Source of the DNA: Acidobacteriota bacterium
GTDB taxonomy: Bacteria; Acidobacteriota; Thermoanaerobaculia; Gp7-AA8
Assembly (NCBI GenBank): GCA_021781455.1
Contig: JAJXWV010000075.1
Location: 1 to 64,000 of the forward strand
Direction of reading: 5' to 3'
Length of the DNA: 64,000 nt
Positions within the stretch are counted from its first letter, which is position 1. Each line of letters opens with the position of its first letter. Position numbers and translations under genes: made by a program. Under the pieces are notes generated by a model that did no database searches, had not been told where the DNA came from, and worked only from the letters and a program-made list of their open reading frames with translations. Positions 1,377 to 53,801 of the stretch are shown one piece after another.

Positions 1377-3545
1377 TCACTTGCCAATCACCCATCGGGT
1401 GAAGAGATCCACGTTCCGCCGCATCACGTCGATGCGCTGCTTTGGCTCGTTGGGGACGTGGTGCGAGCGCGGATAGGTCACCATCGACACGTCGGTGCCC
1501 ATCTCCTGCAGAACGCGATAGAGCATCACGCCCTGTGAGAGCGGTACGCGGTCGTCGGCTTCCCCCTGCTGGATGAGCACGTGCGCCCTGGTCGGCTTCA
1601 GGGTCCAGAGCGGGCTGTGGGCGCGGAGGACGTCGAACGACACCGGCAGATTCTTCATCGCTTCGAGCTTCGAAGGGTCGGTCGTCGCGGCCGGAGTGGC
1701 GGCGGTCGTCGCGGCGCCTGTCGACTTTGCGACCGCCGGCGGAAAATACGACGGGATGAACTCACGGATGTCGGTCGTGCCGTGGAAGCTCAGCAGATCG
1801 ACGACGGGGGCACCGATGCTGATGGCCTTCAGGCGGTCGCTGTGCCCGACCGCCCACGCAGCCATGAATCCGCCGTAGCTCCAGCCCATGAGCCCGAGGT
1901 GGGCCGGATCGGCAATGCCGTCCGCGATGACCTTGTCGATGCCGGCGTTGATGTCCACCCAGTCCATGCCGCCCCAGTCGTTGCGGTTCGCTTCGCGGAA
2001 CTGCTGTCCGTAGCCGCCGGTGCCGCGCGGATTCGGCCGGAGGACGGCGAAGCCGCGTTGGGCCAGCACCTGCGGCGCGTAGAGGTAGCCGAGGTAGCCG
2101 AGGTACGACTGGCTGAAATGAGAGGCAGGGCCGCCGTGAACGAACGTGAGCAGCGGCACGCGCGTGCCGCTCTTGTAGCCCATGGGAAGCGTGAGCAGGC
2201 CCTCGATCTCCAGGCCGTCCTTCGGATTCTTCCAGCGGATCAGGCGGGTCTCGGCCAGCCGGCGGTCGCGATCGGCGTCGTTGTGATGCGTGAGCTGGCG
2301 CGGGGCAAACGTCTTCGATTCGAGGTCGGCGACATAGAGCTCCGGCGGCGTGGTGAGCGACTGCATCACGAATACGGCGCGGCCGTCCTTCGCGTCGACG
2401 TCCGCTCCTTCGATCACTCCAGCCACATTCGACAGGTCGTGATAACCGCTGCCGTCGCTGTTGACACGGAACAGCTGCGCGGTCGTGTTCAGCGGGCCGT
2501 CGAAGTAGATGGCGCGTGAATCGCTCGACCATGCGAAATTCTCCGGCGTGCGGTTGTAGGCAGCGGAGACGAGACGCGGCGTGCGGGTGGCGCGGTCGAC
2601 GACCCAGATCTGATTTTCCGTCAGCCAGTCGAAGACGCCGCCGCTGCTGATGAACGCCACGGACTTTCCGTCGGGCGAGAACTGCGGCAAAGTGTCGATG
2701 CCGGGACGGACGACCAGCGGCATCATCGACGGGCAGGAGCGGTCGTCGCACCTGCTCTTGGCGTCGACGAGGAAGAGGTCGCTGTGAAAGGAGTCGTCGA
2801 CGCTGTTGCTGGGAACGCGCACCACCGCCAGGCTCTTGCCGTCGGGTGACCAGGCCACGCCGTGCACGGAGAAATCGCAGCAGGTCATGCGCCGGAGGGC
2901 CTTGTCCGCGACGTCGATGATGTAGAGGTGCTGTTGCCGGCGTCCCTCACCGCGGCTGTCGGCTCTCGGCTGCCGGCTCTCGGCCGGGCGTGGTTCGTTC
3001 CCGGATGGTGGGCCCGAGAGCTGAGAGCTGAGAGCTGGGAGCTGTGCGGGTGATGGGAGCACGTGCCAGTCCTCTTTTTCCTTGACGCGCTTCTCTTCTT
3101 CGGCGGTGATCGGATCCAGCATCAGGAACGCGATCGACCTGCCGTCGGGAGACCAGGTGAAGTCGCGGATCGGCGCCGGCTCGCTGGTCAGTCTCCACGG
3201 TTCGCCGCCGGAGGCGTTCATGATCCAGATGGCGTTACGGCCGCCTTCGCGGTCGGAGATAAAGGCCAGCTGCGAGCCGTCCGGCGACCATCGCGGGTGC
3301 GTGTCGGAACCGCTGCTGTACGTCAGCTGGATGTCGTTGCGGCCGTCGACGTCGATCACCCAGAGGTTCGTGTCGTAGGCGCTGCGGGTCATGTCCGCGC
3401 GGGTGACCACGTAGACGATCCGATGGCCGTCGGGCGAGAACTGCGGCGCGCTGATCGAAGGCATCGTGGCGTAATCCTCGATCGACAGCGGCTGCGCGGC
3501 GAGTGCGGTGGCGAGGAGGGCGGCGGCAAAAAACATGGCCGGCAT
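1377..3545 (-). CDS. Secreted S9 family prolyl oligopeptidase-type peptidase with in-frame repeat insertion
   Basis: A 722-residue serine peptidase of the dipeptidyl/acylaminoacyl peptidase family. A signal peptide (about residues 1-17) precedes a TolB/WD40-like beta-propeller with repeated FSPDG/WSPDG motifs, then an alpha/beta-hydrolase domain from about 430. The nucleophile is Ser556 in GWSYGGFMAAW, with Asp664/665 in EADDRVPLSQG and His695/696 in YPRSHHVPNEP. It probably degrades oligopeptides in the periplasm or outside the cell. Residues about 165-202 (Pro/Ser/Arg-rich, AQLPALSSQLSGPP onwards) are encoded by a heptad hairpin at 2941-3053 that keeps the frame and adds a loop to the propeller. 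The ORF begins just after another heptad array. Confidence 0.93.
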   Translation of the reverse strand: MPAMFFAAALLATALAAQPLSIEDYATMPSISAPQFSPDGHRIVYVVTRADMTRSAYDTNLWVIDVDGRNDIQLTYSSGSDTHPRWSPDGSQLAFISDREGGRNAIWIMNASGGEPWRLTSEPAPIRDFTWSPDGRSIAFLMLDPITAEEEKRVKEKEDWHVLPSPAQLPALSSQLSGPPSGNEPRPAESRQPRADSRGEGRRQQHLYIIDVADKALRRMTCCDFSVHGVAWSPDGKSLAVVRVPSNSVDDSFHSDLFLVDAKSRCDDRSCPSMMPLVVRPGIDTLPQFSPDGKSVAFISSGGVFDWLTENQIWVVDRATRTPRLVSAAYNRTPENFAWSSDSRAIYFDGPLNTTAQLFRVNSDGSGYHDLSNVAGVIEGADVDAKDGRAVFVMQSLTTPPELYVADLESKTFAPRQLTHHNDADRDRRLAETRLIRWKNPKDGLEIEGLLTLPMGYKSGTRVPLLTFVHGGPASHFSQSYLGYLGYLYAPQVLAQRGFAVLRPNPRGTGGYGQQFREANRNDWGGMDWVDINAGIDKVIADGIADPAHLGLMGWSYGGFMAAWAVGHSDRLKAISIGAPVVDLLSFHGTTDIREFIPSYFPPAVAKSTGAATTAATPAATTDPSKLEAMKNLPVSFDVLRAHSPLWTLKPTRAHVLIQQGEADDRVPLSQGVMLYRVLQEMGTDVSMVTYPRSHHVPNEPKQRIDVMRRNVDLFTRWVIGK
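2941..3053. repeat. Heptad-arm hairpin inserted in frame within the S9 peptidase gene
   Basis: Plus-strand left arm units are GGCTGTC, GGCTCTC, GGCTGCC, GGCTCTC; right arm units are GAGAGCT, GAGAGCT, GGGAGCT. The loop contains GTTCGTTCCCGG followed by ATGGTGGGCCCGA. The same loop, 21 of 25 positions identical but in the opposite orientation, lies in the E1 gene at 28673-28768, where the arms have a different heptad. No stop codon is introduced in the host frame. Confidence 0.85.
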
Positions 3546-5958: not shown

Positions 5959-6152
5959 CGGTGTCATCCTGAGCCGGCGGAACTGCGGGGGTGGTGGTTG
6001 GTGGGAGCAGTGAAGCGCGGCGAAGGATCCCCGCCCGTCAGTCCGGTCGGGTGGTGGAACTGCTGTCTACTCGCGGGGGATCCTTCGCCGCGCTCCGCTT
6101 CCGCGATCGGCGAGGATTCATGAGCTGCTCGACGCTGCGCCGACTCAGGATG
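5959..6152. repeat. Palindromic intergenic element, family R1 (divergent copy)
   Basis: Outer arms CATCCTGAGCCGGCGG and CGACTCAGGATGACA; inner arms GCGCGGCGAAGGATCCCC and GGGGGATCCTTCGCCGCGC. The central GAAGGATCC replaces the GAAGAGTCTC of most copies on both sides, so both arms changed together (compensatory) and the palindrome was kept. It occupies nearly all of the gap 5915-6181. Confidence 0.85.
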
Positions 6153-6181
6153 ACACTCACCTCTGCTACCCTCACGCCGCC

Positions 6182-7599: not shown

Positions 7600-7772
7600 C
7601 GCAGCCCCGTCACTCTGAGCCGGCGAAACCGCGGGGGTGGTGGTTGGCGGGAGCGGTGGAGCGCGGCGAAGAGTCTCTTACCGGGACGATCAGTAGGTTT
7701 GAGACTCTTCGCCGCGCTACGCCGCTCCACCCTTCCGCCCTCCACGCGGCTCCGCCGGCTCAGAGTGACGGG
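7600..7772. repeat. Palindromic intergenic element, family R1 (full copy)
   Basis: A clean full-length copy: CCGTCACTCTGAGCCGGCG at the left end and CGCCGGCTCAGAGTGACGG at the right end, with GAAGAGTCTCTTACCGGGAC and GAGACTCTTCGCCGCGC in the middle. It would fold into one long hairpin with small internal loops. Confidence 0.9.
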
Positions 7773-7799
7773 GAGGACACGACGCTTCGCAGGATGACA

Positions 7800-14660: not shown

Positions 14661-14825
14661 CGCAGCCCCTCCCCCGCCTTCGGCACCCTCTCCCCGCTGC
14701 GGCGTGGAGAGGGTCAACAAGATCACGTCCTGCGAAGCACCTCGGTCGTTCTCGCGATGCAGTCAGCCGTGGCCCTTCTCCCCGCCGCAGCGGGGAGAAG
14801 GTGGCCGAAGGCCGGATGAGGGCCG
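14661..14825. repeat. CCCCGC palindromic element
   Basis: Two inverted modules, GCCTTCGGCACCCTCTCCCC with GCTGCGGCGTGGAGAGGG, and CTTCTCCCCGCCGCAGCGG with GGGGAGAAGGTGGCCGAAGG, form a composite palindrome between convergent genes. It is related to, but not a full copy of, the element at 1117-1345. It may act as a transcription barrier for the two converging genes. Confidence 0.75.
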
Positions 14826-20337: not shown

Positions 20338-20545
20338 CCCCGTCACTCTGAGCCGGCGTAACCGCGGGGGCGGTGGATGGGTGGGAGCGGTGGAGCGCGG
20401 CGAAGAGTCTCTTACCGGGACGATGAGCCGGCTCGAGCGGAGTGACGGCGGGCTCACCGCGATCGTGCAATCTGGAGACTCTTCGCCGCGCTGCGCCGCT
20501 CCCCCCCACCGCCAGCCCGCGGCTCCGCCGGCTCAGAGTGACGGT
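20338..20545. repeat. Palindromic intergenic element, family R1 (long-centre copy)
   Basis: CCGTCACTCTGAGCCGGCG and CGCCGGCTCAGAGTGACGG ends; centre with GAAGAGTCTCTTACCGGGAC, GATCGTGCAATCTGGAGAC. It is preceded by a short GATCGCAGATCGCC unit at 20326 and followed by CCTGCGATCTGCCATCTGCG up to 20655, so an R1 copy appears to sit within the loop of a GATCGCA hairpin. It lies between convergent genes in a gap of 344 bases with no gene. Confidence 0.85.
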
Positions 20546-27592: not shown

Positions 27593-27826
27593 AGAAACTC
27601 CCAGTGTTTATGCGGCTCGCGTGTTCGTTGCCCTTCTCCCCGCCGCAGCGGGGAGAAGGTGCCGAAGGCAGATGAGGGGTCTCCTTTTGAACCAGAACGA
27701 GACCCCTCACCCCGGCCCTCTCCCCGCTGCGGCGGGGAGAGGGGGAACGATCGAACGTTTCTTCTCTCCGGTGTCGCGTCTCCGGTGTCGCGCCTGCGCG
27801 ATTCGAGTGCTCGGAATGACAGGATC
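27588..27826. repeat. ~230-bp element, inverted copy of 1117-1345
   Basis: The reverse complement matches 1117-1345 almost throughout, including AAGAAACGTTCGATCGTTCC, GAGGGCCGGGGTGAGGGGTC, the two CCCCGC palindromes and AACGAACAC...GCATAAACACT with AGTTTCTTGGA. This copy has a local duplication of GACACCGGAGA. It abuts the surviving tail of the YheT-like gene. Confidence 0.9.
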
Positions 27827-27841
27827 GCCCTTCGATTTTTG

Positions 27842-28048
27842 TCCGCGGCGTCCAGCGCCGTCGAGATCCGCACGACGAGGTTCGGCGGCCACACCGGCTT
27901 CGTGGCCGGACGGGTGCCGTGGCGCTGCACGTACTGGGCGGAAGAGATGATCGTGGATTGGCTCATCGGGCGCGGGATTCCGGGTTACGCCGCTGAGGAG
28001 TCGCGAATCAGAGCGCAGATGGCAGATCGCAGATCGCAGGTGGGCTGA
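27842..28048 (+). pseudogene. C-terminal remnant of a YheT-like alpha/beta hydrolase
   Basis: The plus-strand frame ending at TGA 28046-28048 reads TTRFGGHTGFVAG, then PWRCTYWAEEMIVDWL. This matches the end of the YheT/COG0429 alpha/beta-hydrolase family, where GGHxGF carries the catalytic His and a W-x-E-x-x-I-x-x-WL segment closes the protein. The nucleophile Ser and everything else upstream are missing, replaced by the ~230-bp repeat. The last residues (QMADRRSQVG) and the stop are from a heptad array. It is most simply a gene truncated by repeat-mediated rearrangement. Confidence 0.6.
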
Positions 28049-28088
28049 AAAGACCGACCCGCGATCTGCGATCTGCGATCTGCGCTCC
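28014..28088. repeat. GATCGCA heptad hairpin
   Basis: Left units GCAGATGGCAGATCGCAGATC, loop GGTGGGCTGAAAAGACCGACC, right units GCGATCTGCGATCTGCGATC. It ends about 20 bases before the E1 fusion start. Confidence 0.85.
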
Positions 28089-28111: not shown

Positions 28112-30784
28112 ATGTCCACGACCGAGAGTCCCGCGCGAACGAAGCCGGCGCTCCTGGCGCGATTCGCGTCGTTCGTCGCCGAGCGGCATCCCTTCGCGCT
28201 CCGTCCTGCGGTGACGGCGCTGGACATGGCCATCGGCGGTCGCGGCGCCGACGAGCGCGACCCCGTCTCCATCGACGGCCTGCGCGATCCGCTCCGCCGG
28301 CTGCTCATGCAGACGCTCTCCGACTTTCTCGCTCCCGACGCCTCCGCTGCGGAGAAGCTTTTCGACGTGCCGGAAACCACGCCGGGCGTGCCGGTCGGCA
28401 AGCGGCTGCAGCAGGCCGTCAGCGAGGTCATCGACTCCTGCGACGGCTTCCTTCGCCGCGAAGCGATCGCCGCGTCGCTCACGCCCGACGAAAAGCGCGA
28501 AATCCTCCGCGGCATGATCCTTACCCGCGCCACCGACAACCGCCTCAAGCAGTTCTTCACCGCCGGCGAAGTCCGCTACGGCAGTGCCTCCTTCCAGGGC
28601 AAGGGCTTTCGCTCGTTAGGTCAGGAAGCGATCTACGCCGCCGTCATACGCTTGCGCCGGGGCGCCGCATACGAGGTGTCGGGGGGCGGGTCTCAGGTGT
28701 CGGGCCCACCACCAGCGAATGAACAGGCGCCCCCCGACACCCGGCACCCGACACCCGACACCCGTACGTGGGATGGCGACGTCATCTCCCCGATGATCCG
28801 CGACCTCGGCGCGGTCATCGGCATGCACGATGCGCCCGAGACCATCCGCATGGTCCTCAACGCGCAGATGGCGAAAGCCGGCGAGCCGATGAATGGCAAG
28901 GACCTCCACGTCGGCGACTGGTCGCACGGCATCTTTCCGGCCATGGCTCCGTTAGGCGCGCCCGCACTGACCATCGCCGGGATGGCCATGGCCTTCAGGA
29001 TGGAGGGTCACGAGGTCACGAGGTCACGAGGTCACGAGGCGGACGGGACCGCGGAACCTCGCAACCACGCCACCTCGCAACCCGGCCTTCGCGTCGCGGT
29101 CTCCTTCGCCGGCGAAGGCGCCACCTCTCTCGGCGAGTGGAACGAGGCCGTCAATACCTGCGCGGCGCACAAGCTGCCGGCGATCTTCTGCGTTCAGAAC
29201 AACCAGACCGCGCTGTCGACGCCGGCCCGCGAGCAGTCGGCCGTCCGCGTCTTCGCGGAGAAGGGCGCCGCCTTCGGGATTCCCGCGATCACGATCGACG
29301 GGACCGATCCGGAAGCGATCGCCTCCGCGTTCGCCTGGGCTGTCGAGCGCGCCCGCGCCGGCCTCGGTCCGGCGTTGATCGAGCTCGTGGCCATGCGCAT
29401 GTGCGGTCATGCCCATCACGACGACATGCTCTACCTCGGCAAGGACCCCCAGCCGTCGTGGACGTATCCGCAGCTCGTCGAAGGCGGCTATGCCAATCAG
29501 GACCTGTACGACTACTGGTCGCATCGTGATCCGATCGCCGGCTACGCCGCGAAGCTCGCCGCCGACGGAGTCATCGCGCCGGGCGATCTGGAGAAGCTGA
29601 TCCGCGAGGCGGAGGAGATCGTGGAGCGCGAAGCGCGAGCGGTCATCGAGGCCGCGTGGCCGGATCCTTCTCTCGCCGGCACGGGAGTGCTCGCCGACGA
29701 GCCGCGGCGAGCTCACGTGGAGGTCCTCGACGAAGAGTGGCGGCAAGGGAGCTCGAAGAACGCCGGGCTGCCGCCGGTGGAAGAGGCGCCGCCGTTCGAT
29801 CCGAAGGGAAGGACGTTCCTCGACGCGATCATGCTCGGCGTCGGCGACGCGCTGCGAAGCGATCCGCGCGTCTTCGTCTACGGCGAAGACGTCGGCGGAA
29901 AGTACGGCAACGCCTTCCTGCTGCTGAAGCCGCTGCTGAAGGAGTTCGGCGATCGCATCATCAACTCGGTGCTCTCCGAGGCGGCAACGATCGGCGTTTG
30001 CGCTGGAGCGGCCCTGGAGGGATTTCGTCCCATCGGGGAGATCCAGTTCAACGACTTCATCGCCACGGGATTCAACCAGCTCGTCAACAACGCGGCGAAG
30101 ATCCGCTACCGCTGGGGCGGCTCGGTGCCGATGGTGCTGCGCATGCCCTGGGGCGGCCTGCGGCACGCCGGGCCGTATCACTCGCAGAATACCGAGGCCT
30201 GGTTCTATCGGACGCCGGGGCTGAAGATCGTCGTGCCGTCGACGCCGCACGATGCGCGGGCGCTGATGGCCGCAGCGGTCGCCGATCCCGATCCGGTGAT
30301 GTACTTCGAGCACATCAACCTCTATCGCGATCCGCGGATCCGGCAGCTTCTCGGCGATGAAGCCCCGCAGCCGCTTCCGATCGGCAAGGCTGCGCTGCGA
30401 CGGAGCGGCGGCGACCTGGCCATCGTCTCGTACGGCGCGTACGTGCACGTGGGCATGCGCGTGGCGGAGCGGCTCGCGGCGGAGGGCGTGCAGGCGGCGG
30501 TGCTCGACCTGCGCTCGCTGGCTCCGCTCGATCGACAGACTCTGCTCGCGGTCGCCCGGCACTGCAATCGCGTTCTGGTGATCGAAGAAGACACGCGCAC
30601 GGGATCGGTCGGCGAGTCGCTTGCGGCGATCATCCAGGAAGAAGCCTTCGAGTACCTCGACGCGCCGGTACGGATCCTCGGCTCGCTCGACACGCCGGTC
30701 CCCTACTCGCCGCCGCTGGAAGAGGAGTTCCTGGCCGGTGAAGAGCGGATCCTGAATGCGGCGCGGCTGCTGATGCGCTACTGA
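28112..30784 (+). CDS. 2-oxoacid dehydrogenase E1, alpha-beta fusion, with two repeat-encoded insertions
   Basis: 890 residues. About 135-580 is an E1-alpha-like thiamine-diphosphate domain; GEGATSLGEWNEAVN matches the GDGATSEG...N cofactor motif and FCVQNNQTALST follows. About 580-890 is E1-beta (GEDVGGKYGNAFLLLKPLL, ALEGFRPIGEIQFNDFI, RMPWGGLRHAGPYHSQ). Such fusions decarboxylate branched-chain or related 2-oxoacids for a lipoyl E2; no E2 or E3 gene is nearby. Two stretches foreign to the family, about residues 188-219 (GGGSQVSGPPPANEQAPPD...) and 298-327 (EVTRSRGHEADGTAEPRN...), are encoded by hairpin repeats that keep the frame. They sit in the alpha domain, the second just before the cofactor motif, so activity needs testing. 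Confidence 0.88.
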   Translation: MSTTESPARTKPALLARFASFVAERHPFALRPAVTALDMAIGGRGADERDPVSIDGLRDPLRRLLMQTLSDFLAPDASAAEKLFDVPETTPGVPVGKRLQQAVSEVIDSCDGFLRREAIAASLTPDEKREILRGMILTRATDNRLKQFFTAGEVRYGSASFQGKGFRSLGQEAIYAAVIRLRRGAAYEVSGGGSQVSGPPPANEQAPPDTRHPTPDTRTWDGDVISPMIRDLGAVIGMHDAPETIRMVLNAQMAKAGEPMNGKDLHVGDWSHGIFPAMAPLGAPALTIAGMAMAFRMEGHEVTRSRGHEADGTAEPRNHATSQPGLRVAVSFAGEGATSLGEWNEAVNTCAAHKLPAIFCVQNNQTALSTPAREQSAVRVFAEKGAAFGIPAITIDGTDPEAIASAFAWAVERARAGLGPALIELVAMRMCGHAHHDDMLYLGKDPQPSWTYPQLVEGGYANQDLYDYWSHRDPIAGYAAKLAADGVIAPGDLEKLIREAEEIVEREARAVIEAAWPDPSLAGTGVLADEPRRAHVEVLDEEWRQGSSKNAGLPPVEEAPPFDPKGRTFLDAIMLGVGDALRSDPRVFVYGEDVGGKYGNAFLLLKPLLKEFGDRIINSVLSEAATIGVCAGAALEGFRPIGEIQFNDFIATGFNQLVNNAAKIRYRWGGSVPMVLRMPWGGLRHAGPYHSQNTEAWFYRTPGLKIVVPSTPHDARALMAAAVADPDPVMYFEHINLYRDPRIRQLLGDEAPQPLPIGKAALRRSGGDLAIVSYGAYVHVGMRVAERLAAEGVQAAVLDLRSLAPLDRQTLLAVARHCNRVLVIEEDTRTGSVGESLAAIIQEEAFEYLDAPVRILGSLDTPVPYSPPLEEEFLAGEERILNAARLLMRY
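28673..28768. repeat. Heptad hairpin inserted in frame in the E1 gene (first)
   Basis: Left units GGTGTCG, GGGGGCG, GGTCTCA, GGTGTCG; right units CGACACC, CGGCACC, CGACACC, CGACACC. The loop CCCACCACCAGCGAATGAAC is the reverse complement (21 of 25 positions) of the loop in the S9 peptidase insertion, although the arms differ. Confidence 0.88.
29005..29093. repeat. Octad hairpin inserted in frame in the E1 gene (second)
   Basis: Left units GAGGTCAC repeated about four times; right units AACCTCGC, AACCACGC, CACCTCGC. The central part, CGAGGCGGACGGGACCGCGG, matches the junction of the intergenic hairpin at 8771-8860 in reverse complement. Confidence 0.85.
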
Positions 30785-53579: not shown

Positions 53580-53801
53580 CCCGTCACTCCGAGCCGGCGG
53601 AGCCGCACGGTGGGCGGGTGGTGGTGCGGCGCAGTGCGGCGAAGAGTCTCCGGATTGCACGATCGCGGTGAGTCGGCTGCCATCGCTCCGAGAATGTGAT
53701 CAAGGGCAAGACTCCATGAGGTGCGCATTTTGAGACTCTTCGCCGCGCTACGCCGCTCCACCCGCCCGCCTCCCCCGCGGCTCCGCCGGCTCAGAGTGAC
53801 G
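53580..53801. repeat. Palindromic intergenic element, family R1 (long-centre copy)
   Basis: CCGTCACTCCGAGCCGGCGG and CGCCGGCTCAGAGTGACGG ends; inner GAAGAGTCTC and GAGACTCTTCGCCGCGC; centre GGATTGCACGATCGCGGTGAG shared with 12277-12496 and 20338-20545 in inverse orientation. Its right end encodes the last residues (PPSL) and stop of the MFS transporter gene. Confidence 0.87.

Follow-up and report, generated by a model that had tools for sequence, protein, structure and literature searches.

The inverted heptad arrays in a fused E1 gene and in an S9 peptidase gene of this genome are part of a class with about 400 elements in half of the genome, and the part shared within this class is the arms and not the loops. 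The two genic copies are probably (about 0.58) members of one small hairpin lineage whose arm unit has changed in concert. The window, i.e. the whole stretch of 64,000 nucleotides that was analysed, comes from a soil bacterium of the Thermoanaerobaculia, Acidobacteriota, an assignment based on the nearest named E1 relatives.

The first element (insert A, 28673-28768, plus strand) is located in the gene of a fused 2-oxoacid dehydrogenase E1 alpha/beta (28112-30784, plus strand; PF00676, PF02779 and PF02780). On the same strand, its left arm (28675-28704) consists of GGTGTCG/GGTCTCA units, one of them degenerate, and its right arm (28733-28764) of CGACACC units with CGGCACC as the second unit. 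The loop between them (28705-28732, CCCACCACCAGCGAATGAACAGGCG...) is common to the S9 element only. A DNA-level comparison with relatives shows that orthologues differ in length at this place. From GQEAIY to DVISPMIRDLG there are 192 nt in the window, 111 nt in a relative of the same genus (L070) and in four other relatives, and 114 nt in three others. Insert A is a true in-frame insertion with a net gain of 81 bp (27 codons), and the relatives compared at the DNA level, the one of the same genus included, have an empty site here. BLAST with the E1 insert gave no discrimination, the matches being dominated by the arm repeats. Two other acidobacterial E1 genes (L091 and L086) carry unrelated repeat-encoded inserts at this site, of the FAKATADKA type and as a 10-residue repeat.

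The second element (2950-3045, minus strand) has GGCTCTC/GAGAGCT arms and lies in the S9 peptidase gene (1377-3545, minus strand). The insert spans 2941-3053 on the reverse strand and is in frame and stop-free; its loop (2984-3015, minus strand) is given by the reverse complement GCCCACCATCCGGGAACGAACCACGCCCGG. This element is below the array threshold and was picked up by the superfamily scan instead. S9 paralogues with about 34% identity are without a matching segment, in a region too divergent to prove insertion.

A comparison of E1 TCGGGCCCACCACCAGCGAATGAAC with the S9 reverse complement TCGGGCCCACCATCCGGGAACGAAC shows four differences in 25 positions. The two sequences are thus present as originally described and the reported match of 21/25 is correct, with five of the 25 bases belonging to the arms. 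These first five matched bases (TCGGG) are the inner arm ends in both elements, so that the loop proper agrees at 16/20. If the comparison begins at the loop the identity is 17/25, while the best value against any other loop in such an anchored comparison is 14/25. The likeness runs on without gaps through the loop and the right arm, and the whole inserts give a near gap-free alignment across about 100 columns. The right arms read CGACACC CGGCACC CGACACC CGACACC in E1 and CGAGAGC CGGCAGC CGAGAGC CGACAGC in S9. From this alignment it follows that the two units differ by G/C at fixed heptad positions, as a paired swap at two positions (GGGTGTC versus GGCTCTC), and the left arms hold the complementary change (CAGGTGTCGGG versus CAGCTCTCGGG). 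The variant repeat CGGCA.. is the second right-arm repeat in both elements, with the same variant base. The two loops are equal in length (30 nt), and both inserts have the same orientation and the same reading frame, which stop codons in the other frames may force.

The original prediction regarded the loop as the conserved core of a modular element, suggested a search for further core copies with mismatches, and held that their absence would count against it. This search found no further convincing core copies. In the whole 4.88-Mb genome the core pattern matches E1 with no mismatch, S9 with two, and nine sites with three; a reversed-pattern control gave five matches, near the nine, and only E1 and S9 exceed the background. 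In 2.63 Mb scanned with a 23-base core there is one other match, with four mismatches and in a region without arrays, and no further armed copy. Among 18 family genomes the pattern is found in E1, in S9 and, with two mismatches, at one site in another genus; 17 family genomes contain no further convincing copy. A comparison of all loops for shared 6-mers gave only arm-like words and weak signals.

The class to which the two hairpins belong was surveyed in 2.63 Mb (54%) of the 4.88-Mb genome. At the looser score 703 period-7 arrays are observed, of which 513 have an inverted mate within 220 bp. Inverted mates are also found for 130 of 202 arrays of period 8, 27 of 101 of period 9, 6 of 23 of period 10 and 1 of 82 of period 12, and for none of periods 5, 6 and 11 in the same 2.63 Mb. 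A first-order Markov control yields zero arrays at the stricter score. After merging there are 397 polarised inverted arrays with 7- to 9-base units, a median length of 83 bp and a median loop of 21 bp. They comprise 79 consensus units, with about a dozen unit families dominating; most units have no GGG tract, such as ACTCAGG, AAAATTG and AGATCGC. Polarity is fixed, the same unit strand forming the left arm in every large family (e.g. 62/62, 46/46, 21/21 and 20/20). The arms start and end at fixed unit phases and measure about 7k+2 or 7k+3 for heptads and 8k+3 for octads; four units are the commonest arm size. The order of units is mirrored between the arms slightly above the shuffled expectation (0.848 versus 0.832), a significant but tiny difference to which end units may contribute. 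Within one unit family the loops are mostly unrelated. Thus the arms define the families and the loops vary, the opposite of the proposed conserved loop. The prediction of a real element, on the other hand, is supported: the two hairpins fall into a large class of polarised inverted repeats with delimited arms, and a relative of the same genus lacks the E1 copy. The unit CTGAGTC is abundant in the present genus; four other genera of the family also have it and seven do not. For this pattern search the reversed-unit control gives no information, since reversing this unit merely produces a rotation of it. A 9-base array (ATCGGTCCC) occurs near a Y1 transposase gene (L272, 2024-2043), and the 9-base family ACCGATGGG is fully paired elsewhere.

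According to a codon-usage gene model, 351 of the 397 elements are intergenic. They comprise 252 co-directional, 65 divergent and 34 convergent cases, proportions near those of the available intergenic regions. In co-directional gaps the elements lie at a median of 7 bp past a stop and 25 bp ahead of the next start. A terminator role was considered and rejected, since the elements are distributed over gene orientations as these occur and are not in excess between convergent genes. Only eight elements are in frame and open inside genes by a flank-based test, E1 among them and several being uncertain calls, compared with about 41% of random positions being genic.

Other arrays are present at the E1 locus. 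A second inverted array within the gene (insert B, 29004-29075, plus strand) is built of an octad (GGTCACGA). In relatives this site holds other sequences: three species of one other genus have heptads of the GGGAGTC type, a third genus has GCCAACA/GCCGTTC-type repeats, and the relative of the same genus has a G-rich stretch that is degenerate. This one protein-loop site (compared in L070-L073 and L080) hence carries 7- or 8-base arrays differing by genus, and arrays arrive repeatedly, or change repeatedly, there. Upstream of the gene lies an inverted array of AGATCGC heptads (28014-28084, plus strand), and the same-genus L070, of which 151 bp ahead of E1 could be read, shows no such array there.

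A dispersed palindrome family follows the same rule more cleanly. This family, TATGAACCGA...TCGGTTCATA, has 18 matches, including one at window position 228 (183-317). Its arms consist of ordered, non-identical, heptad-spaced units whose order is conserved, and an inner position covaries between the arms as T-A or G-C. The arms are kept and the loops are variable. Longer MITE-like palindromes without heptad arms (GAGCCGGCG...GACTCTTCGCCGCGCT...CGCCGGCTC) are located at 70-182, 5961-6156, 7605-7773, 20340-20544 and 53591-53792, and a second palindrome family of about 113 bp (CCCTCTCCCCGCCGCAGCGGGGAG...) at 1170-1282, 14689-14801 and 27632-27743.

The origin of the E1/S9 pair has to be judged against chance. 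We compared every pair among 160 loops, starting at the inner end of the arm, with Markov-shuffled loops as the control. About 0.9 pairs at 17/25 or better are expected from shuffling, and therefore the E1/S9 pair is not exceptional genome-wide; within the window the match has p of about 0.003, estimated by proportion over a few dozen pairs. The match moderately exceeds chance, and the equal loop length, the variant repeat of the right arm and the common frame add support to a common origin. So do arms with mixed units and three further hairpins of the superfamily GG[GC]T[GC]T[CT], to which both arm units belong, with GGGCCCACC at the inner arm end (C27:105721, C46:6085 and C27:111435). We thus favour the reading that each gene received one copy of the hairpin, both copies with like orientation and frame, and that the arms would later have drifted to different units with complementarity kept. 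Such a concerted drift could be explained by slippage together with copying between repeats and between arms, which would homogenise the unit. The arms would be the family-defining part and the loop passive, and genic elements would survive only where the site tolerates a change in length and the insert keeps the frame and has no stop codon. The absence of other core copies means that this lineage would be tiny. Most family members have differing loops, so copying of whole elements would not be general and the E1/S9 pair would be the exception.

The main rival to this single lineage is coincidence, to which we give about one chance in three. Here arms of the related type GG[GC]T[GC]T[CT] would have been inserted twice independently, and the loops would be alike by chance, helped by a semi-conserved extension of the inner arm (GGG then CCCACC). 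CCCACC stands at the loop start of other superfamily members whose remaining loop differs. The number of pairs expected among all loops and the lack of a third core copy are consistent with coincidence as well. However, it leaves the equal loop length, the variant repeat at the same place, the gap-free alignment and the shared orientation and frame to chance, and the p-value within the window speaks against it.

A modular element with a conserved functional core and exchangeable heptad arms, as first proposed from the 21/25 match despite different arm units, is for the most part refuted, no further cores having been found, and now seems very improbable, as the core exists in two copies only, the E1 and S9 arms are related units and not different modules, loops vary in every large family, and the only family in which an inner part is conserved (TATGAACCGA..TCGGTTCATA, 18 copies) keeps its paired arms and unit order while its loop varies. 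The idea of a replaceable arm unit holds insofar as a compensated G/C swap separates the arms of E1 from those of S9, but both fall into one superfamily and mixed arms exist: the element at C46:6085 combines E1-type and S9-type units. With one superfamily and mixed-unit arms, the difference looks like gradual concerted change and not like an exchange of modules, in line with the single-lineage reading.

How the elements spread and form is a separate matter that concerns the whole class and not the E1/S9 match, and the likelihoods given for it are not to be summed with those above. We tentatively propose that a bacterial process may write arrays into intergenic DNA at hundreds of places. These arrays would be short and delimited, have many different units of 7-9 bases, and always form convergent pairs with unrelated filler between them. 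The unit would shift between genera and drift in concert on both arms, and genic copies such as E1 and S9 would be rare survivors. It appears rather unlikely that the elements spread in the manner of REP/BIME, as palindromes mobilised by a tyrosine HUH transposase of the Y1/RAYT type. The elements are dispersed, intergenic and hairpin-forming, and 14 Y1_Tnp genes are present in the genome. However, the copies do not carry their loop, the unit order of the arms is not faithfully copied, and at the ten Y1 loci read there is no clear cognate heptad array beyond background density. None of these ten Y1 transposase genes is adjoined by an array family of its own, arrays near the ten loci being no more than scattered.

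Still less probable is a mechanism in which repeats are added at two DNA ends, each arm being made on its own but both from one short template, and the arms are then joined into a convergent pair of one unit around a filler loop. Absolute polarity, unrelated loops, a weakly mirrored unit order and quantised arms that start and end in a fixed phase are all predicted by such a mechanism, and DRT10-type systems make 9-nt repeats in E. coli (PMC12632851). However, the 79 consensus units would require many templates, and a loop common to E1 and S9 is unexpected. No DRT10-type system or DRT10-like protein was found in the genome, where the one RVT_1 protein detected resembles RT-Cas1 by eye. This protein of 1115 aa (L195, 5054-8401, minus strand) has a long C-terminal extension that is Cas1-like by eye and is apparently a CRISPR RT-Cas1 fusion.

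The nearest published class is the GGGAATC heptad repeats of Xanthomonas, which the present class resembles in architecture. Those repeats are dispersed, mostly intergenic near the preceding stop codon, with four units preferred (PMC4692102); two arrays often lie close together, always convergent, giving 70-75 pairs per genome (PMC4692102). The period-7 arrays described here likewise have four units most commonly, and paired arrays are always convergent with fixed polarity. In Xanthomonas, however, there is one G-rich, quadruplex-forming unit, whereas at least a dozen large unit families are found here, most without G-runs, together with 8- and 9-base families. Most period-7 arrays here are paired (513/703), and unlike the single Xanthomonas unit, many units coexist in one genome and other units are found in sister genera.

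Similarities with other systems are more limited. Rickettsia palindromic elements are also palindromic insertions kept in frame in protein genes, as at E1 site A, but their whole sequences and peptides are conserved, whereas neither loop, element sequence nor peptide is conserved across copies here, and nearly half of them are genic, compared with about 2% in-frame genic elements (8/397) here (PMC10969869). REP/BIME elements share the intergenic location, the high copy number, the frequent pairs in opposite orientation and the several families per genome, but REPs have no heptad arrays (PMC3733652). They are defined by GTAG or CGTC tags, the GTAG types with RAYT association (PMC3733652). In the present class the arm ends are defined by unit phase. 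The TAACTGA repeats of Beggiatoaceae likewise form short sets of heptad arrays in intergenic DNA close to genes; unlike the present class they are almost exclusively direct (one indirect), just upstream of start codons and of a single unit (PMC4679880). Borg tandem repeats, in the part of the source consulted, are likewise fast-evolving arrays flanked by partial repeats, and genic ones keep the frame, but they are head-to-tail with longer units, genic units are divisible by three, and that part describes no inverted mates (PMC9879509).

The E1/S9 match itself matters little; what is striking is the class behind it. Half a genome contains about 400 inverted arrays that are polarised and quantised in length, and a dozen unit families follow one architecture. 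In-frame hairpins are tolerated in an enzyme gene, as E1 shows. The occurrence of many units in one genome and of other units in sister genera makes the formation of these elements testable by comparison.
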